A DNA stretch of 58,291 bases from Candidatus Methylobacter titanis. Lineage in GTDB: Bacteria; Pseudomonadota; Gammaproteobacteria; Methylococcales; Methylomonadaceae. This document shows positions 22,379 to 46,794 of this stretch, one piece after another; the first letter of the stretch is position 1, and each line of letters opens with the position of its first letter. The DNA lies in the NCBI GenBank assembly GCA_029946125.1, contig JAQSDX010000017.1:1-58291 (forward strand). The letters run 5' to 3'. The notes below the pieces were generated by a model. That model saw only the letters and a list, made by a program, of their open reading frames with translations. It had not been told where the DNA came from and did no database searches. The translations under genes were made by a program, and so were the position numbers.

Positions 22379-24577
22379 TTGCAGTCATTGGCTTTGGATA
22401 ATAGCAAGTACGACTTCCTGTTTTCACTAGAAAACAACCCAAACGAGTTAATTAAGCTTTGTGATGACAAAGCGCGAGACGAGGATATGCAAAAAGAATA
22501 CCAGTTAAGTCCGGGGAATCCTTACCCTTCGGGCTCCAGAGCTAAAAACAAGGGTGTCAATTTCTCCATTTTTAGTCGCTATGCGACGCATGTGGAACTG
22601 TTGCTTTTTGATACGTCAGACTGCGATGAACCCTTTCAAACCATCGTGTTGCAGGAAGAAATTAACCGAACTTTTTTTTCCTGGCATGTTTATGTGGCCG
22701 AATTGCCGACGGGCATATGGTATGCGTGGCGCATGGACGGGCCTAATCAAGTCCGTGAAGCGGGATTGCATTTTGATAAAGACAAGCAATTGATCGACCC
22801 TTGGGCGCGCGCAGTCAGTGATAAGCGTTGGAGTCGCAAGGCGGCGTGTATGCCGGGTGACAATAAACTTACCGCCATGCGTTGCGTTGTCACTGACGAT
22901 CGTTATGACTGGGAAGGCGATGTGCCGCTACGCATTCGCAGCGAAAGGGCTATTGTTTACGAACTCCATGTAGGCGGTTTTACCCGACATTCCTCTTCAA
23001 AAGTGGATCATCCGGGTACTTTTTCCGGCTTGATTGAAAAAATTCCTTACCTGAAAGCACTCGGCATTACTCACGTTGAACTATTGCCGGTGATGGCTTT
23101 CGATGAGCAGGATGTTCCTAAGAACACCGCCGATATGGGGCTGAAGAATTACTGGGGTTACAGTACCCACAGTTTTTTTAGTCCGCATCCAGGTTACTGT
23201 GTCACCCCGGAACAAGGCACTCATGTACAGGAGTTTCGCGATCTGGTCAAAGCGCTGCACCAGGCCGGCATCGGCGTTATTATGGATGTGGTGTTTAACC
23301 ATACTGCAGAGGCGGGTGCCGATGGCCCGATTATAAATTTCAGGGGCATAGGCGATGATATTTTTTATCATCATGATGCGAATAATAAGAGCATTCTTCA
23401 TGATTATACCGGCTGTGGCAACACGGTAAACGCCAATCATCCCCTGGTAGCCAACTTTATTATTAAGTGCCTGGAATATTGGGTCAGGGAAATGCATGTC
23501 GATGGTTTTCGCTTTGATCTGGCCAGCGCTTTAGCCCGAGGGGAGGGAGGTAAAGTTCTGCACGATCCGCCTTTGCTGTGGGGTATCGAGCTTTCAGCGC
23601 GGCTGGCCAAAACCAAATTGATTGCCGAAGCCTGGGATGCGGTAGGGTTGTATCAGGTTGGCAGTTTTCCCGGTTATCGCTGGGCTGAATGGAACGGTAG
23701 ATACCGGGACGTTATCCGGCGCTTTGTACGCGGCGATAATGGCTTGATCAACGAGCTGGCAACCCGCCTTTGCGGCAGTAACGATCTGTATGAACACAAA
23801 GGCCGACTGCCTATTAACAGCATTAATTTTGTCACCTGTCATGACGGCTTTACCTTGTACGATTTGTTCAGTTACAACGAAAAACATAATGAGGCTAACG
23901 GCGAAAATAATCAGGATGGCTGTAATAATAGTTTAAGTTTTAATTATGGCATTGAGGGTGAAACCGAAGACGCAAGTATTTTGGCATTGCGTAGAAAACA
24001 GGCGAAAAATGTTTTTGCTATGTTGCTACTCAGTCATGGCGTTCCGATGTTACTGGCGGGCGACGAGTTATTAAACAGCCAGGGAGGAAATAATAATTGT
24101 TACTGTCAGGATAATGAATTGTCCTGGATAGATTGGAGTATGACGGAAAAAAATGCCGATATGCTGCGCTTTGTTCAACTGATGATAGCGTTGCGCAAAA
24201 GACATCCAGCCATCATGCGGCGGCGTTTTTTGACCGGTAAACCTGTTAATGGCCGGGGCATGGCCGAAATTCAATGGCATGGCACCGAACTTAACAAGCC
24301 GCTTTGGGATGATCCGGAAGCCAGGGTTCTGGCTTTTACCTTGGCAGGTGTGGAAAGTAACGAAGCCGACCTGCATGTCGTGATGAATATGTCAGGTCAA
24401 CAAGTGACCATTGAATTGCCGGTCATTGCCGGTCGCTTATGGTGTCTGTCTTTGGATACATCGTTGCAGGCACCGCAAGATATCGTGGACTCGCAACAGC
24501 AGAAAGCAATGGATGAAAATTGTTATCAGTTAAATACTCGCACTATCGTGGTCTTTGAAAATCGCATTGTTGAATAG
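22379..24577 (+). CDS. glgX: Glycogen debranching enzyme GlgX (GH13)
   Basis: 732 residues from the TTG at 22379; an ATG at 22487 just before the conserved part (PGNPYPSGSRAKNKGVNFSIF) is an alternative start, and neither has a strong ribosome binding site. An N-terminal CBM48 domain is followed by the GH13 barrel: MDVVFNHT, nucleophile D380 in FRFDLASAL, acid/base E417 in LIAEAWDA, and FVTCHDGFTLYDLFSYNEKH. The enzyme removes alpha-1,6 branches left by glycogen phosphorylase. It is separated from the main glycogen genes by about 5.4 kb and followed by its own terminator. Confidence 0.95.
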   Translation: MQSLALDNSKYDFLFSLENNPNELIKLCDDKARDEDMQKEYQLSPGNPYPSGSRAKNKGVNFSIFSRYATHVELLLFDTSDCDEPFQTIVLQEEINRTFFSWHVYVAELPTGIWYAWRMDGPNQVREAGLHFDKDKQLIDPWARAVSDKRWSRKAACMPGDNKLTAMRCVVTDDRYDWEGDVPLRIRSERAIVYELHVGGFTRHSSSKVDHPGTFSGLIEKIPYLKALGITHVELLPVMAFDEQDVPKNTADMGLKNYWGYSTHSFFSPHPGYCVTPEQGTHVQEFRDLVKALHQAGIGVIMDVVFNHTAEAGADGPIINFRGIGDDIFYHHDANNKSILHDYTGCGNTVNANHPLVANFIIKCLEYWVREMHVDGFRFDLASALARGEGGKVLHDPPLLWGIELSARLAKTKLIAEAWDAVGLYQVGSFPGYRWAEWNGRYRDVIRRFVRGDNGLINELATRLCGSNDLYEHKGRLPINSINFVTCHDGFTLYDLFSYNEKHNEANGENNQDGCNNSLSFNYGIEGETEDASILALRRKQAKNVFAMLLLSHGVPMLLAGDELLNSQGGNNNCYCQDNELSWIDWSMTEKNADMLRFVQLMIALRKRHPAIMRRRFLTGKPVNGRGMAEIQWHGTELNKPLWDDPEARVLAFTLAGVESNEADLHVVMNMSGQQVTIELPVIAGRLWCLSLDTSLQAPQDIVDSQQQKAMDENCYQLNTRTIVVFENRIVE

Positions 24578-28659: not shown

Positions 28660-29520
28660 ATGAGTACGCGCACACGTATAGAGACATTCCGGCACACGTT
28701 GTACCAGACTATTTATCAGGCCAATACCCCGGCGGGGAAGGGCTTCGATATTGCGCTGATGATCTTAATTCTGATCAGTGTTTTAACAATTACCTTGGAC
28801 AGTGTCGCCGACATTAGCCAGCGGTATGGGGAGCAACTGGCTACTGCAGAATGGGTATTTACGACTATATTCACTGTCGAGTATATCCTTCGTATTTTCT
28901 GCATACACAGGCCAATCAAATACATCATCAGTTTCTACGGCCTCATCGATTTATTGGCTATCATTCCTTCCTATCTCGGTATTTTTATATCCGATTCACA
29001 TTACCTCCAAGTCATCCGCATCCTGAGAGTTTTACGGATATTTCGGGTGTTGAAGCTGGTCCGTTTTATCAATCAGTCCAATCTGCTGATCAACGCCTTG
29101 ATGGCCAGTCGGCTCAAAATCACTATATTTATGTTCACTATTTCCACGTTGTTGGTGATTTTCGGGTCGGCCATGTATTTGATCGAAGGTCCTGAACATG
29201 GCTTTGCCAACATACCGGTGAGCATTTACTGGGCGGTGGTGACCTTGACCACGGTGGGTTTTGGCGACATCACGCCTCAAACCGATCTGGGGCGCGCCCT
29301 CTCGGCAGTGGTTATGATAAGCGGTTACGCTATCATCGCGGTGCCCACCGGCATATTCACGGCGGAATTATCCCAGGAAATGAAGCGGCAGAATACTCGT
29401 GTTGACGAAAGGGTTTGTTCGAAATGCCGAAAAATCGGGCATGAAATGGAAGCAAACTATTGTCGTATTTGTGGAACCGAGTTACCCCGGTTGGCCGAAA
29501 AAAAAATCAGGCTAATATAG
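28660..29520 (+). CDS. Voltage-gated-type potassium channel with C-terminal zinc ribbon
   Basis: 286 residues with six predicted membrane helices. The S4 helix has regularly spaced arginines (RILRVLRIFRVLKLVRF, about 112-128) and the pore selectivity filter is TLTTVGFGD (about 193-201). After the pore helix the C-terminus carries two cysteine pairs, CSKC and CRIC (about 252-275), which form a zinc-ribbon-like knuckle. Kv-type channels in bacteria control potassium permeability in response to voltage. The zinc ribbon is an uncommon extra and could sense metal or redox state. A strong CAGGAGG site precedes the ATG. The gene is monocistronic. Confidence 0.9.
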   Translation: MSTRTRIETFRHTLYQTIYQANTPAGKGFDIALMILILISVLTITLDSVADISQRYGEQLATAEWVFTTIFTVEYILRIFCIHRPIKYIISFYGLIDLLAIIPSYLGIFISDSHYLQVIRILRVLRIFRVLKLVRFINQSNLLINALMASRLKITIFMFTISTLLVIFGSAMYLIEGPEHGFANIPVSIYWAVVTLTTVGFGDITPQTDLGRALSAVVMISGYAIIAVPTGIFTAELSQEMKRQNTRVDERVCSKCRKIGHEMEANYCRICGTELPRLAEKKIRLI

Positions 29521-29986: not shown

Positions 29987-29989
29987 GTG

Positions 29990-30601
29990 ATGACGTTTTT
30001 GCAGGCAAAGTATAATTCCAAAATGAATCTTTCGGCGAAAGACATGCTTGAAATCAGTCAGGAAATCAGTCGGGATTTTACGCCGTGTTTTTCAAGTCCG
30101 GCGCCGGAATTCGACGAAAAAATCAGGCTTTCGCCCAGGGAACTATTGGATATTGGCGAGGAAATCGGTCGGGATTTTGCACCAAAGCCATCTTGCAATA
30201 TTCCTGAACTGATGCTTTTGCCGGTCGATCCCGGACACCTTTATGCATATTGGGATTTGGGAAGGGATAAGGATATTTCTATGCCTGATAATGAGAAAAT
30301 CACCTTACGAATTTATTCGCAATCCGACGACGAAGAGGCAGCTGCCGAGACGGTATCATGGTTCGACGTCGCCATCGATAATCCGATGACTCAACAACAA
30401 GTGTCTTTATCCTGTCCGGTTAATGAAACGGCTTATTCAGCCGCCATAGGCAAATGGGGCGCAGATGACGGTTTTATCGCTATTGCCCATTCGAACATTA
30501 TTCATGCCCCGCTTAGGACGGCCTGGCATCAAGATCATCAAGACTTCGGCTATTGCCAGGGCAAAAATGCCTCAGGCCTAGGCATCAACAAACAAGCATG
30601 A
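29990..30601 (+). CDS. DUF4912-domain protein linked to GH57 branching enzyme
   Basis: 203 residues from ATG 29990 (a GTG directly before it is possible), with AGGG six bases upstream. The N-terminal third holds two copies of a short motif: LSAKDMLEISQEISRDFTP and LSPRELLDIGEEIGRDFAP. Then comes a DUF4912-like domain beginning PVDPGHLYAYWDLG, the family's hallmark. No signal peptide. Its stop overlaps the start of the GH57 gene (ATGA), so the two proteins are made together. DUF4912 proteins are found beside GH57 genes in several bacteria, and a binding or scaffolding role is plausible. The biochemical function is unknown. Confidence 0.75.
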   Translation: MTFLQAKYNSKMNLSAKDMLEISQEISRDFTPCFSSPAPEFDEKIRLSPRELLDIGEEIGRDFAPKPSCNIPELMLLPVDPGHLYAYWDLGRDKDISMPDNEKITLRIYSQSDDEEAAAETVSWFDVAIDNPMTQQQVSLSCPVNETAYSAAIGKWGADDGFIAIAHSNIIHAPLRTAWHQDHQDFGYCQGKNASGLGINKQA

Positions 30602-32250
30602 CAACAAGCTTACCGCGTTCCGGGCAAGGTTTCCTGAGCATTATTCTGCACGCGCATCTTCCCTATGTGCGTCATCCTGAGCATGACAGTTTTTTTGAGG
30701 AAAACTGGCTGTTCGAAGCCATGACCGAATGCTATCTGCCGCTGATCGGTGTACTCGACCGTTTACACACGGATAACGTCGATTACCGGCTGACGCTGTC
30801 GTTGTCGCCGACGCTGATATCTATGCTGCGCGACGACTTGCTGCAAACACGCTATCTGAGCTATTTGCACAGTCGGCTGGAATTGGCTGAAAAGGAAATT
30901 ATCAGAACCCGTAAGCAGCCGGAGTATCAAAAATTAGCGCGACTCTATCGCCGCTTTTATCTAAACGCGTTAAGCACTTATCAGGATCGCTATCACGGCG
31001 ATTTATTGGCGGCTTTTAAAAAACACCAAAGCACCGGTAAGCTTGAACTGATCACGACAGCTGCGACTCACGGTTTTTTGCCGCTGCTGAATGTCAGCGA
31101 AACCGCGGTCCGCAACCAGATAAATACCGGTATCGCCATGTTTAAAGCGGCAACGGGCAGCGCTCCGACTGGATTTTGGCTGCCTGAATGCGGCTATTAT
31201 CCAGGCCTTGAGGCGGTGCTGGCCGAGGCGGGTATCGCCTATTTTTTTGTCGATAGCCACGGTGTTATGGATGCCAGTTCGCCGCCTCGTCATGGCGTTT
31301 ATTCGCCGATAGCCTGCGGCAATGGTGTCGCGGCATTTGCGCGCGATCCCGAATCATCGCGGCAGGTCTGGAGTTCTCAGGAAGGCTATCCGGGAGATTT
31401 TGATTACCGCGAATACTATAGCGATATCGGTTTTGAGCGGGAGTTGGATTATATCGCGCCTTATATTCTCGATGGAAAAACCCGTATCAACACCGGCATT
31501 AAATACCATCGCGTGACCGGCGAGAACCGGCCTAAGGAAATTTATAATCCGAGACAGGCATTAGCAAAAGCGCGTGAACATGCTCAGGATTTTGTCGATA
31601 AACGTCAGCGTCAGATCGATCGGCTTGGCGCTGCGATGGACGATGGCCGGCAACCGATTATCGTTGCGCCTTATGATGCGGAACTGTTTGGTCATTGGTG
31701 GTTCGAAGGGACATATTGGCTGGATTGGGTGCTGAGATTGGCAAGTGAAAGCACCGGCGGCGTTCAACTAAGCAGTTGCGGAGATTATTTAAAGCAGCAG
31801 CCGTCACCGCAGGTAGCTACACCCGCCGCATCAAGCTGGGGCGATCAAGGCTATTCCAGTTACTGGATTAATGAAACCAATGCCTGGATTTACCCTTTGC
31901 TGCACAAGGCCGAATTGCAGATGGAAAAACTTGCGCACGATGTTCAGGGCTTAACGCTGACTCCGATACAGACGCGGGCCTTGAATCAGGCCGCTAGATC
32001 GATTTTGCTGGCGCAAGCTTCCGATTGGCCGTTTATCATGAAATCGGGGACGACCATCGACTATGCGAATAAACGCGTTACCGATCATCTGGCCAGATTT
32101 AACTATTTACATGACTGTTTTCGCAAGAATAGGCTCAATGAGCGTTATTTGACGGCGCTGGAGATCATGGATAATATTTTTCCGGATATTGATTTTCGGG
32201 ATTACAATCCCTCAAATGTAAGGGTGGGTTTTAAACCTGCCCGGTCTTAA
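30598..32250 (+). CDS. GH57 1,4-alpha-glucan branching enzyme
   Basis: 550 residues from the ATG at 30598, four bases overlapping the DUF4912 gene. The N-terminal LSIILHAHLPYVRHPE is typical of GH57/DUF1957 branching enzymes. The nucleophile is E197 in GFWLPECGYYPG and the acid/base is D360 in APYDAELFGHWWFEG. It introduces alpha-1,6 branches into alpha-glucan. The window also encodes a GH13 branching enzyme (GlgB), so the organism has two unrelated enzymes for this step; this one is tied to the DUF4912 and CBM21-EEP genes. The C-terminal SNVRVGFKPARS is short, without an extra domain. Confidence 0.88.
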   Translation: MTTSLPRSGQGFLSIILHAHLPYVRHPEHDSFFEENWLFEAMTECYLPLIGVLDRLHTDNVDYRLTLSLSPTLISMLRDDLLQTRYLSYLHSRLELAEKEIIRTRKQPEYQKLARLYRRFYLNALSTYQDRYHGDLLAAFKKHQSTGKLELITTAATHGFLPLLNVSETAVRNQINTGIAMFKAATGSAPTGFWLPECGYYPGLEAVLAEAGIAYFFVDSHGVMDASSPPRHGVYSPIACGNGVAAFARDPESSRQVWSSQEGYPGDFDYREYYSDIGFERELDYIAPYILDGKTRINTGIKYHRVTGENRPKEIYNPRQALAKAREHAQDFVDKRQRQIDRLGAAMDDGRQPIIVAPYDAELFGHWWFEGTYWLDWVLRLASESTGGVQLSSCGDYLKQQPSPQVATPAASSWGDQGYSSYWINETNAWIYPLLHKAELQMEKLAHDVQGLTLTPIQTRALNQAARSILLAQASDWPFIMKSGTTIDYANKRVTDHLARFNYLHDCFRKNRLNERYLTALEIMDNIFPDIDFRDYNPSNVRVGFKPARS

Positions 32251-32306
32251 GATGTTGCGTCGTTCCCTTGCTATGACGTCACTACCCAATAGTTAGGGTT
32301 GAATGC

Positions 32307-32334
32307 TGTGGGCGCGAATAAATTCGCGTCCACA
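32307..32334. repeat. Strong short hairpin repeat
   Basis: TGTGGGCGCGAA and TTCGCGTCCACA form a 12-bp stem with one G-T pair around a 4-base loop. It lies 56 bases after the GH57 branching enzyme gene and has no T-run. It resembles the GTGGGGGCG-type hairpin at 28208-28254 and may be a REP-like element that stabilises or separates transcripts. Confidence 0.65.
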
Positions 32335-32454
32335 ATAACTTAATGGCAGTGATGCTCCGACGTCCGGCGGCACATAGGATACGCACGGCATACCCGGAAT
32401 CCTATATCTTTCCTTTTGACCTGAGTTTCAGGGTAGCAATAACGGAGACAAAAT

Positions 32455-33963
32455 TTGGCCAAAATCCAACTGCTGTATGTTGAAAATGTGATTACCCGTA
32501 AAAAAACCAACGTTCAACAGACGCTGGATTTTTTTATGCGGGTGGAAAACGTCAGTTACGATAAACGGATCGATGTGCTCTGGTCGGGTGAAGACGGCAT
32601 ATGGCAAACTCTGCCTGCCAGTTTTCATAGCAAACTGGAACATGATCAGGAATACTGGCGGGCTCAAATCCATTTCCAGCTCAGTCCGGCTCATTCGCTA
32701 CCCGGCAATATCCGGTTCGGATTACGCTACCAGAGTTCCGGGGGTGAGTATTGGGATAACCGGCAGGGCGCAAATTATTCCAGTCAAGCTGATTCAGGTA
32801 TCAAGGTAGTTTGCCCGGCGCCGGTTTTAAACATCGGCTTTGCGACTCAACTGGATGGCGAACAAAAAAACATTCCGGTCACGGTGGCGGTGGATAAATT
32901 CAACGATGCCGACAAGGTAACCGTACACTGGACGACCGATAACTGGCAGCATAGCCATAAAACCGCCTGCCATTTTAAAAGAAACTACTGGGACAAAGAG
33001 GCGCTCAGCAATGCCAGAAATCCCAATCAGTACGGTATTGCAATCTGGAAAGGCTGGCTTAGGATCGGTCAGGCTTTCCGCTTGCAATACAGTATTTCCG
33101 TTGAACGCAACGGCCAGATTTTTTGGGATAACAATCACGGCAAAAACTACTCACTCAGCCATGAGTCGCTGAAGGTGTTGATTCTTAATCTGCATTGTTA
33201 TCAGGAAGATAATCAGGATGATAAGTTTTCCCAAATAGCCAAGGCGATTAATGACCTGAATGTTGACGTTGTCTGTCTACAGGAAGTGGCTGAACTTTGG
33301 AATGACGGGGCAGGGGACTGGGAGTCCAATTCCGCCAAAATAATCAATGATCGCTTGGCTGCGCCGTATCATATTCATACCGACTGGGCGCATCTGGGCT
33401 TTGACAAGTACCGCGAAGGCGTTGCCATTTTAAGCAAATTTCCGCTGCTCAAACAGGACGCCAAGTATGTGTCGGATAGCCATGACGTTTACAGTATTCA
33501 TTCCAGAAAAGTCGTCATGGCACAAATCAAGGTGCCTTATATCGGGCGGGTTAATGTTTTTTCGGCGCATTTAAGCTGGTGGGAAGACGGATTTGCCGAG
33601 CAGTTTAATCGATTGTGCGAGTGGGCCAAGGCTAAACAGACGGCGCAAGTTTGCGCCACGTTGCTGTGCGGCGATTTTAATATTACTGCCGGATCAAAAG
33701 GCTATCATCTGGTGGTCGATGCCCATCAATATGACGACCAGTATCTGGCGGCCAATTCGCAGGGCGTGTTTGAAAAGATCTTCAGAGTTAACGATCCTTA
33801 CTGGCAAGATTATCCCAGCGACGATTATCGTATCGATTATGTTTTTTTGAATAAAACCAGCGAGCTAAGCGTCACCTCAGCGACGGTTTTGTTTACCGAG
33901 CGGGATTATGGCAGGGTTTCCGATCATTGCGGTTATTTTATGACCTTTGAGCCTAAGATTTAA
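32455..33963 (+). CDS. Two CBM21-like domains fused to an EEP-family phosphohydrolase
   Basis: 502 residues from TTG 32455, with GGAG seven bases upstream. No signal peptide. Two related beta-sandwich repeats (about 5-112 and 125-235) each end in the CBM21-type signature: YWDNRQGANYS (99-109) and FWDNNHGKNYS (223-233). Such domains bind glycogen or starch in eukaryotic phosphatase-targeting subunits. The rest is a complete endonuclease/exonuclease/phosphatase fold: N245 in LNLHCY, E277 in LQE, H372 in SAHLSW, D407 and N409 in GDFN, and D490/H491 in SDH. It should hydrolyse a phosphodiester or phosphomonoester on or near glycogen. The substrate (nucleic acid, lipid head group, sugar phosphate) is unknown. 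Neighbours are glycogen genes and a phospholipase D-like gene. Confidence 0.8.
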   Translation: MAKIQLLYVENVITRKKTNVQQTLDFFMRVENVSYDKRIDVLWSGEDGIWQTLPASFHSKLEHDQEYWRAQIHFQLSPAHSLPGNIRFGLRYQSSGGEYWDNRQGANYSSQADSGIKVVCPAPVLNIGFATQLDGEQKNIPVTVAVDKFNDADKVTVHWTTDNWQHSHKTACHFKRNYWDKEALSNARNPNQYGIAIWKGWLRIGQAFRLQYSISVERNGQIFWDNNHGKNYSLSHESLKVLILNLHCYQEDNQDDKFSQIAKAINDLNVDVVCLQEVAELWNDGAGDWESNSAKIINDRLAAPYHIHTDWAHLGFDKYREGVAILSKFPLLKQDAKYVSDSHDVYSIHSRKVVMAQIKVPYIGRVNVFSAHLSWWEDGFAEQFNRLCEWAKAKQTAQVCATLLCGDFNITAGSKGYHLVVDAHQYDDQYLAANSQGVFEKIFRVNDPYWQDYPSDDYRIDYVFLNKTSELSVTSATVLFTERDYGRVSDHCGYFMTFEPKI

Positions 33964-33988
33964 GGTGAAAGATTCAGGGCGAGAGGCA

Positions 33989-34031
33989 GGAGTGCAAGCT
34001 TCGCTTGCTCAGCAGGCGAAGCCTGCACTCC
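33989..34031. repeat. Hairpin repeat between the CBM21-EEP and HKD genes
   Basis: GGAGTGCAAGCTTCGC and GCGAAGCCTGCACTCC form a stem of about 16 bp with a mismatch, around an 11-base loop. It is a REP-like element without T-run, sitting in the 128-base gap before the gene at 34092. Confidence 0.7.
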
Positions 34032-34091
34032 ACCGATTTTCCCGTCCAGCATGAGACTAAAAATTTCATCCTTTATCATGGAGATAAACCT

Positions 34092-35684
34092 ATGCAGATA
34101 GCTGAACATTACGCCGCGCCCACTCATGGAAATATGGGGGGCTCTTTTCAAAGAGTTAACGACTTCAACGACAAATTCTATATCCGCTGGGGAAAAATAG
34201 ATTTCGATGTGTTTTATGGCGTTCAGGCCAATGTAAAAGTTATCCTAAAAGTCTATCGCGATACGATCTGCGAAACCTATATAGTCGATACCGACGCCTA
34301 TGATATTCACTGGGATAGGCACAAACGTTGCACACGGGATTTTTATATCCATCCGTTTTCCAGTAATTTCGGCCAGATCAACTGTGTCAAGTTCGCCTTT
34401 ATTGTGCATCTGGACGAGCATTCCATTGCCTCCCGGAACGAATATATCTTTATGGACTGGCAGCAGCTTCAGGGCGACCATCCGCAGTATCGAAGGATTA
34501 CCGGGGATTGGTCCACGGCCAACAATTATCGAAGCTACGAATTGAATGCCGGTGAATTGCAGAGCGATGTGGATTGGTATAACCATCATTTTGAAGCCTT
34601 GCAACTGGTACCTAAATTCACCAAAGGACAGCAGCACCATCCTTATCATCCCAAGCGTTATATTCACGACCTGATCGACAAGGTTATCCGCTGTAAGCAC
34701 CAGAATCCTGAGCGCTTATGCACCATAAAAGTCAGCGTGGATTGCATCGACGACCATGATTTTACCACCCATTTGCTAGCCGCCAGCGAGCAGGGGGTTT
34801 TGGTTCAGTGCATTGTCGATTGGCGAAAAATGACCCTAACCAACAGCCAAAATTATGCGCGCTTGAAGCATTCCCGGATTGAATTGATCGGCGTGTTTTG
34901 CAGTCCGAAGCATCACCTGATCGAAGTGGAACCGGACATGCACACCAAATTCATTATTTTTAATGATGAAGACAGTATATTGGGTTCATTCAATATCACT
35001 TTCGATCGCTGGTGGGCTAATTGGGAATCGGGGATGACCTTTCATTCCAAAGGCATCTGTCGGTTGCTGGATAACATTTTTCAAAGCCAGCGGGGCGGCG
35101 TCAATCAAAAATACGGCATCGACCCGTTGAGCCATTTCAACCTGCTCTATACCTTTGGTCGGCACGTGATGCTAAACGGCAAGCCCTATCTTCCGCATCA
35201 TGCGATATTGGCCGAAATTAACCGCGCCAGACATTCGATTAAGGTGTCGTTATTCCTGATCGGCGATTTGCTGGGCGATCATCACGATAGCGTGGTCAAT
35301 GCGCTGATCAATGCCAAAAACCGGGGAGTTCATGTCCATATTTTGCTTAACGGGCACTTGGCGAGGCAGGGTCGTATCGGTGTAGAACGGCCGATGGGGG
35401 AAGAGTTGAGCCGTCCGTTGTTGCCGACGGTAGATCGATTAAAGCATGCCGGTATTGCTGTAGGTTTGGTTTACGGGCAGGACGATCATCCGGTGCCTTA
35501 TTCCCCGATACATTCCAAGTATTGCATTATTGACGATTACATTGTTATAGAAGGCAGTTTCAACTGGTATAACACCTCGGTTTTTTCCCATGACCTGCTG
35601 GTCGTGGCCGCCAATTACGAAGTCGCGCAGCCTTATCTGTATGAGTTTGAAGAAATACAGCGGTCGTTCAGGGTGTATTATTGA
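34092..35684 (+). CDS. Phospholipase D-like protein with two HKD motifs
   Basis: 530 residues from ATG 34092, with GGAG 9 bases upstream; the frame is open further back through a hairpin repeat, so the later start is chosen. An N-terminal domain (about 15-130) is rich in beta strands and aromatic residues and resembles no family I can name. Two catalytic HKD motifs follow: H284-K286 in DMHTKFIIFNDEDSILGSFN, and H474-K476 in IHSKYCIIDDYIVIEGSFNW. Together they form one phospholipase D-type active site. No signal peptide. Substrates in this superfamily range from phospholipids to DNA. The gene follows the CBM21-EEP gene in the same direction and may share its pathway. Confidence 0.82.
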   Translation: MQIAEHYAAPTHGNMGGSFQRVNDFNDKFYIRWGKIDFDVFYGVQANVKVILKVYRDTICETYIVDTDAYDIHWDRHKRCTRDFYIHPFSSNFGQINCVKFAFIVHLDEHSIASRNEYIFMDWQQLQGDHPQYRRITGDWSTANNYRSYELNAGELQSDVDWYNHHFEALQLVPKFTKGQQHHPYHPKRYIHDLIDKVIRCKHQNPERLCTIKVSVDCIDDHDFTTHLLAASEQGVLVQCIVDWRKMTLTNSQNYARLKHSRIELIGVFCSPKHHLIEVEPDMHTKFIIFNDEDSILGSFNITFDRWWANWESGMTFHSKGICRLLDNIFQSQRGGVNQKYGIDPLSHFNLLYTFGRHVMLNGKPYLPHHAILAEINRARHSIKVSLFLIGDLLGDHHDSVVNALINAKNRGVHVHILLNGHLARQGRIGVERPMGEELSRPLLPTVDRLKHAGIAVGLVYGQDDHPVPYSPIHSKYCIIDDYIVIEGSFNWYNTSVFSHDLLVVAANYEVAQPYLYEFEEIQRSFRVYY

Positions 35685-39867: not shown

Positions 39868-42141
39868 CTATAATTTCAAAATCACGGCTCCCAACGGCGG
39901 CAAGGTAAGGCTGATAGAATGTGGCAGATTCATCCACGCGGTCGGTTCTGACAAGGCTGCGCCATTGCCTACATTACTGCCGCTGTAATATCCGGAATCA
40001 GAATTGAATATTTCGGTATAAGTGCCCGCCGCAGGCACACCGATCCGGTATTGCTCACGAGCTACCGGGGTAAAGTTGAGCACGATGATCAAATCTTCAT
40101 GCTCGGTTTTCCGACGATAACTGATGATGGATTGTTGTGAATCATGGCAATCAATCCAGTCAAATCCCTGATAATCGAAATCATGCTGATATAACGCCGG
40201 GTGTTTTTTATAAAGATGATTTAGGTCTTTTACCAGCGCTTTCAGGCCTTGGTGATGCGGGTACTCCAGAACATACCAGTCCAAGGCTTTGTTGAAATTC
40301 CATTCGGTGCCTTGCCCGAATTCACAGCCCATGAACAGCAGCTTTTTACCGGGATAAGTGTACATGAAGGTGTACAGCAGACGAAGATTGGCAAAGCGCT
40401 GCCATTCATCCCCCGGCATACCGTTGAGCAGCGAGCCTTTGCCATGTACGACTTCATCGTGGGAAAAGGGTAGGCAGAAGTTTTCGGTAAAGGCATAGAG
40501 CATCCCGAAAGTAAGCTGGTCATGATGATATTTGCGGTGTATCGGCTCCTGACGCATATAAGACAGTATGTCATGCATCCAGCCCATGTTCCATTTCATC
40601 GAAAAACCTAAGCCGCCGGTCCAGGTCGGGCGGGTAACTTGCGGCCAGGAGGTAGATTCTTCAGCCATCATCACCGTGCCGGGATGCTGGTCATGGGTGA
40701 CAGTATTGAGATCCCTCAGAAAATCTATCGCTTCCAGGTTCTCGTTACCGCCATACATATTGGGAATCCAGTCATTCTGCTCGCGGGAATAATCCAAGTA
40801 AAGCATTGAGGCCACGGCATCGACCCGCAAGCCGTCAAGATGGAATTCCTCCAGCCAGAAAATGGCGCTGGACAGTAAAAAGTTTTTAACCTCATTGCGG
40901 CCAAAGTTATAAATTAAGGTGCCCCAGTCGCGGTGTTCACCCTTGCGCGGGTCTTCGTGTTCATACAGCGCGCTGCCGTCAAAACGAGCCAGAGCAAAGC
41001 TGTCTTTGGGGAAATGCGCGGGCACCCAATCCAGAATCACGCCGATACCGTTTTGATGGCAGGTGTCGATAAAATAGCGAAAATCGTCCGGTGTGCCGTG
41101 ACGGCTGGTCGGGGCAAAATAGCCGGTGGTTTGATAACCCCAAGAGGCATCCAGCGGATGCTCGGTCACCGGCAATAATTCAATATGGGTAAAGCCCATT
41201 TCCTTGACATAGTCGACCAGTTGTACAGCCAATTCACGATAATTGAGAAAATTGCCCAGATTGTCGCGTCGCCAGGAACCTAAGTGAACCTCGTAGATAG
41301 ACATAGGCTCATGCAGCCAATTGTGGCGGATACGTTGATCCATCCATGGCTGATCCTGCCAAACATAGCTTTTTTCCTGGATCACAATGGACGAGGTATT
41401 GGGACGGAACTCAAACTGCTGACCGTATGGATCTGTTTTTAACAAGATCTCGTTGGTATTGCGGTTTAAGATCTCAAATTTATAGTAACAACCGGCTTGC
41501 AAATCCGGCATGAACAGTTCCCAGATGCCACTACCACCCAGGCTGCGCATGGGATTGCAGCGGCCATCCCATTGATTGAAATCACCCACCACGCTGACTC
41601 GTCCGGCATTAGGCGCCCAGACCGCAAACAAAACCCCAGCAAGACCATCGGCTTTATGCAGATGTCCGCCCAGTTTTTGGTAAATATGCCAATGCTTGCC
41701 TTCGCCGAATAAATGCTGATCAAACTCCGGAAATTGGGTGCCGAAATCATACGGGTCATAGTTTTCGTGGCTGTAGCCAGACTTATCGGTCCAGGACAAA
41801 CGATAATGCGCTGGCAATTGCTCATTTTTTTGGGCGTTATATTCAAAAAAATCGGTATCGGGAACCCGGTTTAAAGCAGCGCCGTTATGACTAAAGCTCA
41901 CTGTTTCTGCGTAAGGTAGATACAATTTAATCTGAACGTTATTATTCTTGATATGACGACCCAAAACTGAAAAAGGATCATGATGTCTGGCTTCCGTGAT
42001 TTTTATCATATCTGCGTCAAGTGCGACGTTAGATTGTTTTTGCATATTGCCGGGCAGTACGTCTGAAGAAGGGATCACATCTGAGTCAAGTGCATTGTTA
42101 GCTTGTTTTTGCACGATGACATTTTTAGATTGCTTTTTCAC
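39868..42141 (-). CDS. glgB: GH13 1,4-alpha-glucan branching enzyme
   Basis: 757 residues from the GTG at 42141, which has GAGG nine bases upstream; the open frame runs back over the glgC start, which argues against earlier starts. An N-terminal CBM48 region ([11 protein letters not shown]) and a second ([20 protein letters not shown]) precede the GH13 barrel with nucleophile D441 in [18 protein letters not shown] and [12 protein letters not shown]. The first 50 residues contain a 23-residue tandem repeat not found in standard GlgB. It makes alpha-1,6 branches. It is divergent from glgC with about 92 bases between them. Confidence 0.94.
42005..42114 (-). repeat. In-frame 69-bp tandem repeat in the glgB 5' end
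   Basis: The 41-base segments 42005-42045 and 42074-42114 are near-identical direct repeats at a 69-base period, 23 codons. A further partial copy lies at 42126-42141. The translated copies are [16 protein letters not shown] and [17 protein letters not shown]. The repeat adds a flexible N-terminal extension ahead of the conserved enzyme. Confidence 0.75.
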
Positions 42142-42233
42142 TATGAATAGCCTCGGAGTAGTGGAATAATGGTTGCGGTCAATATTACCAAACACATCAA
42201 GAGTTGTCAGTCTATTCCACATGGAGATGAAAA

Positions 42234-43514
42234 ATGTCAGCATCAAGTAATCAAAAACATGATCATAATGTCGGTCATTTAACTCGTAATACTATTGCAT
42301 TAATACTGGCTGGTGGTCGCGGATCACGGTTAATGAATATGACCGATTGGCGCGCCAAGCCGGCGGTACCTTTTGGCGGCAAGTTCCGGATCATCGATTT
42401 TCCTCTGTCGAACTGTATGAATTCCGGTATACGCAAGATAGGTGTTTTAACCCAGTACAAGTCGGATTCACTGATCCGTCATATTCAGCAGGGCTGGGGA
42501 TTTTTGCGTGGTGAATTTGGTGAATATGTCGACTTGATGCCTGCTCAACAACGGCACGATGAGAATTCCTGGTATCAAGGAACCGCTGACGCTGTTTTTC
42601 AGAATATTGATATTCTGCGCAGTCGCCGTCCTGAACATATTTTGGTGCTGGCCGGCGATCATATCTATAAAATGGATTACGGCGCGATGCTTGCCGATCA
42701 TGTTGAAAAAAATGCTGATTTAACAATAGGCTGTATTGAGGTTTCGTTGCAAGATGCAACGGCCTTTGGTGTCATGGATGTCGATGAGAATCGGCGGGTC
42801 AGGGCTTTTGTAGAAAAGCCGGAGCATCCTCCGCTGATGCCGGGTAGAACAGATACAGCGTTAGCGTCGATGGGCATTTATATTTTTAATGCCGAGTTTC
42901 TATTTGAACAATTACTGAAAGATGCGGACACTCCAGGCTCGACGCGTGATTTTGGCAGAGATATTATTCCTGCCGTTATCGATAAATATTTAGCCAATGC
43001 GTATCCCTTTTTGGATTTGCAAAGCGGGGAACAAAGTTACTGGCGCGATGTAGGCACTATTGATGCCTACTGGTCTGCCAATATGGAATTGATTGGCGTA
43101 AAACCGGATTTAAATTTATATGATAAAACTTGGCCTATATGGACTTATCAGGCGCAAACGCCTCCGGCCAAATTTGTTTTTGATAGCGATAAAAGACGAG
43201 GCCAGGCTGTGGACTCTATGGTTTCAGGAGGGTGTGTAATTTCCGGAGCAAAAGTCAGGCATTCGCTGTTATTTTCGAATGTTCGCGTCAACTCGTATAC
43301 GACCTTGCAAGATACCATTGTTTTGCCGGAAGTTAATATCGGTCGCCATTGTCGTATTACTAGGGCGATTATAGAAAAAGGCTGTGAAATTCCGGAAGGC
43401 ACCATTATCGGTGAGGATAGAGCCGAAGATGAAAAAAGATTTCATGTGAGCCCCGGCGGAGTTGTTTTGGTTACCACAGATATGCTGGGACAAAATAGAC
43501 ACTATGTCAGATAA
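42234..43514 (+). CDS. glgC: Glucose-1-phosphate adenylyltransferase (ADP-glucose pyrophosphorylase)
   Basis: 426 residues with GGAG upstream of the ATG. The nucleotide-binding [11 protein letters not shown] (about 24-34), then [20 protein letters not shown], the central GTADAVFQN and the substrate site FVEKPEHP are all present; the C-terminal part is a left-handed beta helix. It makes ADP-glucose from ATP and glucose-1-phosphate, the committed and usually allosterically controlled step of glycogen synthesis. It leads the plus-strand set glgC-GH57-malQ. Confidence 0.97.
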
Positions 43515-43569: not shown

Positions 43570-45270
43570 ATGCCAGATAAAATCAAATTGAAATTAGTCT
43601 TGTGCTGGCATATGCATCAGCCGGAATATAGGGATTTACAGACAGGGGAATTTAAGCTTCCGTGGACATATCTGCATGTTATTAAAGACTATGTAGATAT
43701 GGTGGCGCATTTGGAAGCCGTGCCGAATGCCAAGGCGGTCGTTAATTTTGCCCCTATCCTGCTGGAGCAAATTGAGGAATATGCCCGGCAAGTCAACGGC
43801 TATTTGCATGATCGCATTTCGATTACCGATCCCTTGTTAGCGGCACTGGTTGATCCCAGTATTCCGGCAGATCCTGAAGAACGCATGAAGCTGGTTAAAG
43901 CCTGCATGCGAGCGAACCGGGACAGGCAAATAAATCGCTATCCGAGTTTTCAACGATTGATTGAAATGGCTGACTGGCTTGAGCATCATTATGATTCGTT
44001 AAATTATGTTAATTCTCAATTTATCAGCGATATTCTAGCTTGGTATCATCTGATCTGGATGGGGGAAACCCTAAAGTTGACGGACAGCCGGGTGAAGCGC
44101 CTGTTAGAGAAAGGCTCCGGTTATACGCTGCACGACAGGATCGAAATTGTAGAAGTCATTGCTGAGCAATTGACCGGTGTTATCTGCCGGTATAAGGCAT
44201 TGGCCAGAAAAGGGCAGCTTGAGCTTTCTGTATCGCCTTATGCTCATCCGATCATGCCGCTGTTGCTGGACTTGAATTCCGCTCATGAGGCGATGCCGGA
44301 GGCTCTTTTGCCGGAGTTGGATAGCTATCCGGGCGGAGCCGATCGAGTGGCGTGGCATCTTGAAAAGGGTGTGCAGACCTTTAAGCGATTATTCGGCTTT
44401 AAACCGAAAGGATGCTGGCCTTCGGAAGGCGGTGTCAGCGATCAGACCTTGAAAATATTAGGTGATTTCGGCTTTGACTGGACGGCAAGCGGCGGTTCTG
44501 TGCTTGCCAATAGTTTACATCTTCCTGAAAATACCAAACAAGCAGGCATTCATCATCCTTTTAAGCTTGCCAAAACCGATATAGCCTGTTTTTTTCGGGA
44601 TGATGGTTTATCCGATCTTATCGGTTTTGAGTATTCAAAATGGCATGCCGATGATGCGGTCGGCGATTTGATCCACCATTTAGAAAATATTGCTGATCAT
44701 GAGCGTGGCGACAAGGTCGTTTCAATTATCATGGATGGCGAAAATGCCTGGGAGTATTATCCAGATAATGGCTATCATTTTCTCAGTGCTTTATATCAAC
44801 GGTTGGCCAGTCATTCAGGTATTGAATTAACGACTTTTTCGGAATGTTTGCAAAATAAGGTTGAGGTTAAACCGCTGGCGAAAATGGTTGCGGGCAGCTG
44901 GGTTTATGGTACCTTTTCAACCTGGATAGGCGATACCGACAAAAATCGTGGCTGGGATATGCTAGGCGATGCTAAACGGACCTTTGACAAGGTGATTTCA
45001 GCCGACAGCTTAACGGATAAGCAAGTGCAGCAGGCTGAACTTCAGCTGGCCGTTTGTGAAGGTTCTGATTGGTTTTGGTGGTTTGGTGATTATAATCCCG
45101 GAGAAGCTGTCAGTAACTTCGAGAAACAATTTCGGCTTAATTTAGCTAATTTGTATAGACTGTTGGGTGAGGAGGCGCCAGCTTATCTGGCGATGACGTT
45201 TACTCAGGGTTCCGGTGCCCCGGCTATGGGTGGTGCAATGCGTCCAGGTGTAGAGCTACCCAGTGGATAG
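43570..45270 (+). CDS. GH57 glycoside hydrolase/glucanotransferase
   Basis: 566 residues. KLVLCWHMHQPEYRDLQTG is the N-terminal GH57 motif. The nucleophile is E286 in KGCWPSEGGVSD and the acid/base is D389 in IIMDGENAWEYYPDNG. Homologues are annotated as alpha-amylase or 4-alpha-glucanotransferase and often sit in glycogen operons. This one differs clearly from the GH57 branching enzyme at 30598-32250. It lies 55 bases after glgC and 54 bases before malQ, so it is likely co-expressed. No signal peptide, which fits work on intracellular glycogen. Confidence 0.85.
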   Translation: MPDKIKLKLVLCWHMHQPEYRDLQTGEFKLPWTYLHVIKDYVDMVAHLEAVPNAKAVVNFAPILLEQIEEYARQVNGYLHDRISITDPLLAALVDPSIPADPEERMKLVKACMRANRDRQINRYPSFQRLIEMADWLEHHYDSLNYVNSQFISDILAWYHLIWMGETLKLTDSRVKRLLEKGSGYTLHDRIEIVEVIAEQLTGVICRYKALARKGQLELSVSPYAHPIMPLLLDLNSAHEAMPEALLPELDSYPGGADRVAWHLEKGVQTFKRLFGFKPKGCWPSEGGVSDQTLKILGDFGFDWTASGGSVLANSLHLPENTKQAGIHHPFKLAKTDIACFFRDDGLSDLIGFEYSKWHADDAVGDLIHHLENIADHERGDKVVSIIMDGENAWEYYPDNGYHFLSALYQRLASHSGIELTTFSECLQNKVEVKPLAKMVAGSWVYGTFSTWIGDTDKNRGWDMLGDAKRTFDKVISADSLTDKQVQQAELQLAVCEGSDWFWWFGDYNPGEAVSNFEKQFRLNLANLYRLLGEEAPAYLAMTFTQGSGAPAMGGAMRPGVELPSG

Positions 45271-45324: not shown

Positions 45325-46794
45325 GTGAATGACATCTTAAAGAAACGCCGCGCCGGCATTCTGTTGCACATTACCTCGTTACCGGGTTCGGGTAGTCAGG
45401 GCGATTTGGGGCAGGAAGCTTATCATTTTGTAAAATTCCTGCACGATTCTGGGGTTAGCGTATGGCAAGTCTTGCCTTTAGGCATGACCCATGCGGATGG
45501 TTCGCCCTATCAGTGTCTGTCTGCCCACGCAGGTAATCCGGCGTTAATTAATCTTGATTGGCTAGTGACGCAGGGCTGGCTACAGCGTTCTGATAAATGC
45601 GATGAATGTCCCGGCCATCATGAAAAGTCGTGCTTGATAGCAAAGGCTTATTCTGGGTTTTTGGAGTGCGCCGAGCAACAGCATAAGGAGAGTTTTACGC
45701 AATTTTGTCAGGAAAAAGCATTCTGGCTTGATGATTTCGCCTTGTTTTTGGCTCTTAGAATTGAATTTAATCAACAATGTTGGAATCAGTGGCCGGAGCA
45801 TTTTAAGGAAAGGGATGAAAAAGCCATAAAAGAAGCGCGTCGCCGCTTAAAAACACAAATCGAATGTATTCAATTTGAGCAATATGTGTTTTTTCGGCAG
45901 TGGCTGGAATTAAAAGCCTACGCCAACCAGTATGGCGTATCTTTATTCGGCGATATTCCTATTTTTGTGTCTTATGATAGCGCTGATGTCTGGACTCATC
46001 GTGACGTTTTTAAGCTCGATGAATCAGGCGAAATGTCTGTTGTGACCGGTGTGCCGCCTGATTATTTTTCTGAAACAGGTCAGCGTTGGGGAAATCCGCA
46101 CTATAACTGGACCTATCTGAAGAAAACCGGCTTTCATTGGTGGGTTAAAAGGATGAAAACGCAGATTGAGCTGTTTGATATTATTCGGATCGACCATTTT
46201 CGTGGGCTTGAAGCCGCCTGGGAAATACCAGCAAATGAAGATACCGCCATTAATGGGATATGGGTTAAGGCGCCCGGCAAAGCATTATTGAATGCCTTGA
46301 AAGCAGAATATGGATTGATTCCACTGGTTGCTGAAGACTTGGGTATTATTACACCCGAAGTCGAGGCGTTAAGAGATGAGTTTGATTTGCCCGGCATGAA
46401 AATTTTGCAGTTTGCGTTTGGCGATGATCCTGGTAATCCTTATTTGCCTGATAATTATGAAAAAAACTGCGTTGTTTATACCGGTACTCATGATAATGAC
46501 ACGACTTTGGGCTGGTTGCAGGGTATTAGCGATGATCAGAAAAACTACATTTACAATTACCTTGGCAATCCGACATTGTCATTGCATTGTGCGCTAATTC
46601 ATGCAGCATTGGCATCGGTTGCCAATCTGGCGGTAATTCCGATGCAGGATATTCTGGAGTTGGGTTCTGAGTATCGTATGAATACTCCAGGTACGACGAA
46701 GGGTAACTGGAAATGGCGTTTTCAGTGGGACCAGTTATCAGATAAACGGGCGGTGCGGTTTGCCTATCTGGTTGGGTTGTTTAATCGTAAGTAA
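45325..46794 (+). CDS. malQ: 4-alpha-glucanotransferase (amylomaltase)
   Basis: 489 residues from a GTG start. GH77 motifs are seen throughout: RRAGILLHITSLPGSGSQGD at the N-terminus, nucleophile D290 in IRIDHFRGLEAAWEIP, acid/base E337 in VAEDLGIITPEV and YTGTHDNDTTLGW. It transfers alpha-1,4-glucan segments between chains and recycles short maltodextrins released by debranching. It is the third gene after glgC and the second GH57 enzyme. The 167 bases after it hold no gene. Confidence 0.95.
   Translation: MNDILKKRRAGILLHITSLPGSGSQGDLGQEAYHFVKFLHDSGVSVWQVLPLGMTHADGSPYQCLSAHAGNPALINLDWLVTQGWLQRSDKCDECPGHHEKSCLIAKAYSGFLECAEQQHKESFTQFCQEKAFWLDDFALFLALRIEFNQQCWNQWPEHFKERDEKAIKEARRRLKTQIECIQFEQYVFFRQWLELKAYANQYGVSLFGDIPIFVSYDSADVWTHRDVFKLDESGEMSVVTGVPPDYFSETGQRWGNPHYNWTYLKKTGFHWWVKRMKTQIELFDIIRIDHFRGLEAAWEIPANEDTAINGIWVKAPGKALLNALKAEYGLIPLVAEDLGIITPEVEALRDEFDLPGMKILQFAFGDDPGNPYLPDNYEKNCVVYTGTHDNDTTLGWLQGISDDQKNYIYNYLGNPTLSLHCALIHAALASVANLAVIPMQDILELGSEYRMNTPGTTKGNWKWRFQWDQLSDKRAVRFAYLVGLFNRK

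Follow-up and report, generated by a model that had tools for sequence, protein, structure and literature searches.

A CBM21-CBM21-EEP fusion and its two-HKD partner in Methylococcales and Accumulibacter: a candidate glycogen-directed phosphoesterase module

What is known of phosphate on glycogen, and of how it is taken off, comes mainly from animals and plants, and in animals CBM21 domains bring a phosphatase to glycogen. Here we describe a pair of genes in a 58,291-nucleotide stretch of DNA from Candidatus Methylobacter titanis (Methylococcales; contig JAQSDX010000017.1; hereafter the window), which encode a protein with two CBM21 domains fused to an EEP phosphoesterase domain, and a phospholipase D (PLD)-superfamily protein with two HKD motifs. 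The glucan phosphatases laforin and SEX4 resemble this pair in the job we propose for it, with a carbohydrate-binding module tethering the phosphoesterase to alpha-glucan, but they have the DSP fold and a module of another family, whereas the pair has the EEP fold, is bacterial and includes an HKD partner. No DSP-family domain is among the Pfam matches to an E-value of 1, which places the pair outside the DSP glucan phosphatases, the family to which all known glucan phosphatases belong according to a recent paper (PMC13011383). The glycogen-targeting subunits of protein phosphatase 1 (PP1; PPP1R3A/B/C, PTG) use CBM21 to hold a phosphatase on glycogen and are matched in sequence by both CBM21 domains of the window; there, however, the protein phosphatase is a separate partner recruited by the CBM21 subunit, whereas here CBM21 is duplicated and fused to EEP, with no PP1-recruiting segment.

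Other likenesses concern the enzyme domains. BT3783 (PDB ID: 4c1r) has the EEP fold and, by its PDB title, a phosphorylated-sugar substrate, as we propose for the fusion, but the two are 20% identical in the structural match and the glycan differs. In Escherichia coli, the EEP gene ybhP is directly followed by the two-HKD gene clsB, much as in the pair here, but CBM21 is lacking, and the HKD protein makes cardiolipin and is not specially related. The closest relatives of the EEP domain that we found, the 3TEB protein of Leptotrichia buccalis and EEP-only paralogues in Methylococcales, are likewise without CBM21. In the open-access literature searched, we found no paper describing a CBM21-EEP fusion or an EEP-HKD pair, none linking DUF4912 (the family of a neighbouring gene) to glycogen, and none on bacterial CBM21 with an exonuclease/phosphatase family and glycogen; the part covered of a Chem Rev survey of prokaryotic alpha-glucan enzymes (PMC11046441) contains neither CBM21 nor DUF4912.

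The two genes and their domains lie as follows.

32455–33963, plus strand: CBM21-CBM21-EEP fusion protein, 502 residues (Pfam; AlphaFold2 model with a mean predicted local distance difference test score, pLDDT, of 85.6; hydropathy)
32479–32781, plus strand: CBM21 domain 1 (PF03370, 38.9 bits)
32854–33156, plus strand: CBM21 domain 2 (PF03370, 46.0 bits)
33169–33954, plus strand: EEP phosphoesterase domain (PF03372)
34092–35684, plus strand: two-HKD PLD-superfamily protein, 530 residues (PF13091, PLDc_2, 113.9 bits in two stretches)
34092–34526, plus strand: N-terminal beta-sandwich-like domain of the HKD protein, of no known family (AlphaFold2)
34941–34964, plus strand: HKD motif 1, HTKFIIFN (HxKx4N; H284, K286 and N291 invariant in 26/26)
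35511–35534, plus strand: HKD motif 2, HSKYCIID (HxKx4D; H474, K476 and D481 invariant in 26/26)

We propose that two proteins, both apparently cytoplasmic, make up the core of the locus as a phosphoesterase module directed at glycogen. Enzymes of the PLD superfamily hydrolyse a phosphodiester to a monoester plus an alcohol, and some EEP enzymes are phosphomonoesterases. The CBM21 tandem would anchor EEP on alpha-glucan chains, domain 1 through both known sites and domain 2 through the secondary site only; the HKD partner would first cut phosphodiesters on or near the granule, leaving a phosphomonoester on one side; and EEP would then hydrolyse phosphate esters on the glucan to free hydroxyls, giving clean chains open to branching, debranching and phosphorolytic enzymes. 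Some form of phosphoester chemistry directed at glycogen is probable, and to the mechanism in which CBM21 holds EEP on glycogen, HKD opens phosphodiesters and EEP removes phosphate we give a probability of about 0.4.

The earlier note had placed two CBM21 domains in residues 5–235, and this stood on three counts: Pfam, PDB profile matches and a nearly all-beta model. CBM_21 scores 75.4 bits in two stretches (gathering score 28.9), with Exo_endo_phos at 65.6 bits in the same protein. The PDB matches of the tandem are PP1 subunits 3A/3B/3C and a glucoamylase starch-binding domain; domain 1 matches the latter (E 1.4e-7) as well as PP1 subunits, and domain 2 matches PP1 subunits 3B/3C at E of about 1e-9. 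Residues 1–237 are nearly all strand in the AlphaFold2 model, with block pLDDT of 71–93 except at residues 171–190 (67 and 44), and a beta-sandwich fold is thus predicted for the region. The two domains match each other at 86% by hhalign, and the tandem looks like the product of a duplication.

For the glucan-binding sites, we relied on the paper on the PTG-cyclodextrin structure (PMC9582199), which gives site II (primary) as N177, F180, E181, K182, Y203 and D214, and site I as R187, W193, Y196, C235, W246, N248 and N253. These sites were transferred through HMMER alignments, and columns were counted in 90 aligned sequences, the window included. In domain 1, site II is represented by N32 (76/90), Y or F35 (67/90; H or P in 20), D36 (62/90; N or E in 14) and K37 (90/90), counts that leave out the equivalents of Y203 and D214, and site I by W50 (89/90), W100 (86/90), N102 (88/90) and N107 (85/90). 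Domain 2 has lost site II and kept site I (W164 90/90, W224 83/90, N226 78/90, N231 83/90), with H158 (80/90) replacing PTG R187. Domain 1 retains the alpha-glucan-binding residues of largely both sites, and domain 2 those of site I only.

The CBM21 domains are also the fastest-evolving part of the protein (mean distances 0.45 and 0.51, compared with 0.31 for EEP). This would suit a reading in which CBM21 binds another glycan, such as exopolysaccharide or cell wall, and the glycogen linkage is secondary, as would two Accumulibacter loci (L104, L133) where the pair adjoins carbamoyltransferase and LpxL-like genes. Hydropathy, however, gives no hydrophobic N-terminus, no signal-peptide-like stretch and no membrane-like segment in the CBM21-EEP protein, and the alpha-glucan site residues are conserved; we regard another glycan as very unlikely. 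Compared with two close relatives, dN/dS (nonsynonymous to synonymous substitution rates) is 0.11–0.13 for CBM21-EEP and 0.03–0.04 for HKD, values that point to strong purifying selection on both genes.

The EEP domain is complete, as the earlier note held. Its residues N245, E277, H372, D407, N409, D490 and H491, which we take to be the catalytic set (Asn, Glu, His, Asp-x-Asn, Asp-His), are each present in 90/90 aligned sequences; of 11 positions examined in all, ten show no variation across the 90 sequences, and the eleventh, R320, is found in 89. The domain matches 3teb at E 1.2e-21 by phmmer and 8e-20 by Foldseek, and 3teb, neutral sphingomyelinase (rank 3) and TDP2 are its top Foldseek matches. 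BT3783, titled a mannosyl-6-phosphatase, follows at rank 44 (E 4.5e-11), so that the EEP fold includes, by title, a sugar-phosphate enzyme; we found no paper describing BT3783 in the open-access literature, and the precedent is therefore that of a PDB title. EEP-only paralogues, 36–38% identical to the EEP domain, occur in 14 of 101 relatives, and in eight of their stretches (L041–L048) we recognised no match to the window's glycogen genes close by.

Most EEP and HKD enzymes are phosphodiesterases, and a location among GlgA and GlgC fits control of ADP-glucose; the two proteins could thus be granule-held phosphodiesterases of nucleotides or nucleotide sugars that adjust glycogen synthesis by splitting, for example, ADP-glucose or a signalling nucleotide. 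Against this, we found no sequence feature pointing to nucleotides, and the known ADP-sugar pyrophosphatases belong, to our knowledge, to other folds. We judge a nucleotide substrate distinctly unlikely.

The partner was described in the earlier note as a two-HKD enzyme, and two PLDc_2 stretches agree with this; motif 2 is a complete HxKx4D, and motif 1 is HxKx4N in 26/26 sequences and not HxKx4D. Its gene lies where it had been placed, with the start moved from TTG 34005 to ATG 34092; likewise, the gene of the GH57 1,4-alpha-glucan branching enzyme upstream (GH57BE) stands with its start at ATG 30598 and not TTG 30553, both ATG codons being chosen because homologues begin there. The nearest named relatives of the window are Methylobacter metagenome-assembled genomes (97% for the HKD protein). 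The best fold match is phospholipase D 7e0m (Foldseek E 9e-13), and the 50 matches shown are mostly PLD-superfamily proteins; confidence in the AlphaFold2 model is moderate (mean pLDDT 70, against 55–59 for four other models). The HKD protein is better conserved than CBM21-EEP, with mean pairwise distances of 0.21 vs 0.39 (77 rows), and the two distance sets correlate (r 0.86). Its N-terminal domain (residues 1–145) has modelled strands between residues 8 and 143 (block pLDDT 77–90, one block 65) and neither a Pfam match nor a PDB sequence match; it is itself conserved (34092–34526, mean distance 0.31). A CBM21-like domain was looked for there and not found (profile comparisons at 0.2 and 0.5% probability; no PDB match). 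From the model, this beta-sandwich-like domain is possibly a further glycan-binding domain.

An HKD enzyme beside an EEP enzyme also raises phospholipid chemistry at the granule or membrane, with the pair working like E. coli ybhP-clsB and CBM21 keeping it near glycogen bodies. In E. coli K-12, ybhP lies directly upstream of clsB, YbhP is related to the EEP domain (25% over 265 residues, E 7e-12 in a comparison of seven sequences; profile 39 bits), and neutral sphingomyelinase ranks third among the EEP fold matches. Inspection of individual loci, which was not a systematic survey, added, in Accumulibacter L104 and L133, a gene similar to lipid A acyltransferases two positions upstream of the pair and, in L116 (Accumulibacter), a lysophospholipid transporter gene downstream of it. 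ClsB, however, is related to the HKD protein at superfamily level only (profile 9.4 bits), the NCBIfam cardiolipin synthase models give this protein 26 of 290 and 15 of 281 bits, and neither member of the pair has a strongly hydrophobic segment (19-residue hydropathy maxima 1.18 and 1.11). A phospholipid role is, in our view, unlikely. Orthology with ybhP-clsB was rejected for the HKD half, given the 9.4 bits and the missed equivalog scores; the EEP half is a distant relative.

A defence role, which the earlier note had raised, found little support. A nuclease pair or defence system using glycogen as a scaffold would fit the fold matches to the nucleases TDP2 and PLD3/PLD4, the weak DrmC-type scores of the HKD protein (best 39.7 bits in NCBIfam and 39.5 bits in PADLOC) and the EEP-only homologues, about 30% identical, on 63 plasmid records. 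The NCBIfam score, however, falls short of the DrmC cut-off of 133, and among the eight window proteins run through PADLOC the CBM21-EEP, DUF4912 and GH57 proteins gave no match, the HKD protein gave superfamily-level scores and a MarR-like protein gave two weak matches. Of 72,556 plasmid records, none covers 80% of the CBM21-EEP or the HKD protein, and one viral-contig scan, which did not include the HKD protein, returned no CBM21-EEP relative; the strong purifying selection also argues against defence, which we consider highly improbable. Membership of the HKD protein in DISARM as DrmC was rejected, and PADLOC found no DISARM core gene among the eight proteins.

For phosphate removal by a two-protein module, the constancy of the pair matters. 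Among 101 relatives, the window's genome included, the full-length fusion is present in 44 and the HKD gene in 43; the two occur together in 42, EEP alone in two and HKD alone in one. The single genes (EEP in G002 and G053, a partial HKD in G013) all lie at contig ends, and the fusion of G006 has a TAG within the matched stretch. Locus counts, for pairing as for glycogen linkage, were made on the best 80 of 166 named relatives. In 75 of the 80 loci, EEP is directly upstream of HKD on the same strand, with a gap of 9–713 bp (median 80 bp). Among the five others, L062 and L101 begin at a contig edge, L092 retains just the tail of EEP, about 3.2 kb away at its contig edge, and in L091 and L105, both from Methylomonas, the two genes are separated. 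Each of the five genomes carries a full-length EEP fusion on another contig. In the two Methylomonas genomes, the EEP gene stays in glgX-DUF4912-GH57BE while the HKD gene lies elsewhere, and both are kept. These two natural splits are L091/L157 and L105/L156; Methylomonas sp. LW13 carries the pair (L127). CBM21-EEP and HKD thus form a consistent pair.

The surroundings of the pair in the window contain the following genes.

22379–24577, plus strand: GlgX debranching enzyme (TIGR02100, 692 bits, cut-off 641)
29987–30601, plus strand: DUF4912 protein, starting at GTG 29987 or ATG 29990 (PF16258, 43.9 bits)
30598–32250, plus strand: GH57 1,4-alpha-glucan branching enzyme (PF03065, 125.7 bits; PF09210, BE_C, 114.2 bits)
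33989–34031, no strand: inverted repeat between the EEP and HKD genes, with 20-nucleotide arms (18/20 complementary) and a 3-nucleotide loop
38136–39587, minus strand: GlgA glycogen synthase (NF001899, 587 bits, cut-off 459)
39868–42246, minus strand: GlgB GH13 branching enzyme (NF003811, 1030 bits, cut-off 741)
42234–43514, plus strand: GlgC-like ADP-glucose pyrophosphorylase (PF00483 and PF24894)
43570–45270, plus strand: second GH57 enzyme (PF03065, 181.8 bits)
45325–46794, plus strand: MalQ, GH77 (PF02446, 579 bits)

With GlgX, GlgA, GlgB, the GlgC-like protein, the second GH57 enzyme and MalQ around the four genes from DUF4912 to HKD, the window is a large glycogen cluster. A locus was counted as linked to glycogen when blastp at E 1e-20 or better matched the window's GlgX, GlgA, GlgB, GlgC, GH57b, MalQ or GH57BE anywhere in the stretch; glycogen phosphorylase was not among the queries. 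By this measure, 55/71 loci outside Accumulibacter have a glycogen gene, and 32/37 of those of at least 21 kb. The earlier note had staked its idea on a carbohydrate-binding fold and on homologues near glycogen genes, and neither expectation was contradicted. Arrangement varies among the 75 two-gene loci: the next recognised gene upstream is GH57BE in 32 and GlgA in 18, and the next downstream is GlgA, GlgB or GlgX in 11. Across the 80 loci, the window's non-glycogen neighbours are rare (Usp 2, SulP 2, MarR 2, Kv 2, CNNM 0, polysaccharide deacetylase 5), and inherited gene order alone therefore does not explain the linkage. In the divergent locus L128, which forms the longest terminal branch of the HKD tree, a GlgX (1078 bits) is encoded convergently to the pair. 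Five loci (L070, L071, L100, L105 and L131) lack a recognised glycogen gene in the 10 kb around the HKD gene; in L070, L100 and L131, the neighbouring genes point to no other common function. GlgA was found in 41 of 43 hosts (the two without it being 70–72% complete genomes) and in 10 of 11; its co-occurrence was dropped as strong proof since 80 of the 101 relatives have GlgA.

The earlier note had joined all four genes into a single glycogen system, and this did not hold: EEP adjoins HKD in 75/80 loci, whereas GH57BE is in the stretch in 34/80, and the Accumulibacter pair lies away from recognised glycogen genes (0/9). The one four-gene system was rejected, and DUF4912 with GH57BE is a neighbouring module, separable from the EEP-HKD pair. 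In the window, the two genes of this module overlap (ATGA, 30598–30601), followed by 204 bp to the EEP gene and 128 bp from EEP to HKD. The branching enzyme has both the GH57 and BE_C domains by Pfam, and the NCBIfam GH57 branching enzyme models for Thermus and Thermococcales give it 334 bits, under the equivalog cut-offs of 920 and 1000. PF16258 occurs in 1/398 sampled Pseudomonadota genomes, the window's own, and is as rare there as CBM21; it has matches in 3/14 control genomes (B. subtilis, S. elongatus and T. maritima), two of them above the cut-off. Before the DUF4912 domain, there are two copies of the 17-residue motif LSxxELLxISxEISRxF at a distance of 33 residues (30029–30178, residues 15–64). 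By eye, the duplication is present in the window and in 14/15 homologues (degenerate in L040), and a strict regular expression finds it in 3/15; it looks as if it were a docking or linker motif.

All four open reading frames were where the earlier note had them, on the plus strand, and every domain it claimed scores above the Pfam gathering score. Both arms of the inverted repeat fit one pattern with no mismatch at fixed bases, and an automated repeat finder was silent; the repeat resembles a repetitive extragenic element or attenuator, and the unlikely TTG start at 34005 falls inside it. Between a MarR-like gene and the DUF4912 gene, positions 28660–29520 encode a protein resembling voltage-gated ion channels, whose C-terminal tail is zinc ribbon-like (PF18912, below the cut-off).

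The earlier note had described CBM21 as known mainly from eukaryotic phosphatase targeting, and in the phylum it is indeed rare: it was found in 1/299 sampled Pseudomonadota, the window's own genome, and in 0/14 control genomes. In the 101 relatives, 44 genomes have CBM21, each time in frames matching the EEP fusion. G012 has a second frame, of 290 residues, carrying the first part of the fusion, and the methanotroph G044 (contig C105, L163) an additional CBM21-only frame of 255 residues. An alignment search for HKD in 369 genomes of the class at E 1e-30 gave one match, the window's own. In the Accumulibacter family, the fusion is in 2/61 genomes, one of which seeded the search, and in the genus Accumulibacter in 17/28 (loci already known included); the pair thus spans Methylococcales and part of the genus. 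A third genome of the family, G762, has three tandem-CBM21 proteins with no recognised enzyme domain (L147:8776–10469, L148:9205–10026). In a tree of 82 HKD sequences (close relatives only, quick method, SH-aLRT support only, midpoint root for drawing only), Accumulibacter and G773 form one clade (support 100) within methanotroph sequences, the surrounding 13-row group having support of 93. This topology would suit a single transfer from a methanotroph to Accumulibacter; we found no open-access paper on Accumulibacter or Methylobacter, glycogen and horizontal gene transfer.

Several points weigh against phosphate removal from glycogen by the pair. The HKD protein has no CBM21 recognisable by profile comparisons or PDB search, 3teb has a title that names no function, and both neutral sphingomyelinase and TDP2 outscore BT3783 in Foldseek. 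None of the nine Accumulibacter loci has a recognised glycogen gene (five of the nine stretches are at least 21 kb), nor do 5/37 long loci outside Accumulibacter, and the linkage counts, resting on the best 80 of 166 relatives, lean to close kin. One host, the genome of L131, has no GlgA match, and 37 of the 80 GlgA-bearing relatives lack both genes of the pair, which is thus dispensable for glycogen metabolism. Domain make-up, conservation, pairing and location were read from the sequences, whereas the binding, the activities, the glycogen-phosphate substrate and the diester-first order in the mechanism are predictions, and whether bacterial glycogen is phosphorylated is left open in PMC13011383. 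The same paper reports that glucan-bound phosphate lowers branching-enzyme affinity (PMC13011383). A phosphoesterase beside GH57BE and GlgB would fit. As judged from sequence, phosphate removal from glycogen seems the best functional idea.

A wider form of it, in which some glycogen-storing bacteria have covalently phosphorylated glycogen, phosphodiesters included, cleaned in two steps by a phosphodiesterase (HKD) and a phosphomonoesterase anchored through CBM21 (EEP), which evolved separately from laforin and SEX4 and are shared by methanotrophs and polyphosphate-accumulating bacteria, is offered tentatively and is rather unlikely as a whole. If true, the fusion would be a bacterial glucan-phosphate enzyme of a non-DSP fold, with the CBM family of the animal PP1 glycogen-targeting subunits. 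Such an enzyme would make the phosphorylation of bacterial glycogen testable in culturable hosts, for example Methylomonas sp. LW13. Accumulibacter is an organism of biological phosphorus removal, and the pair could bear on its glycogen and phosphate cycling. The finding suggests that bacteria, like animals and plants, may strip phosphate groups from the glycogen they store.

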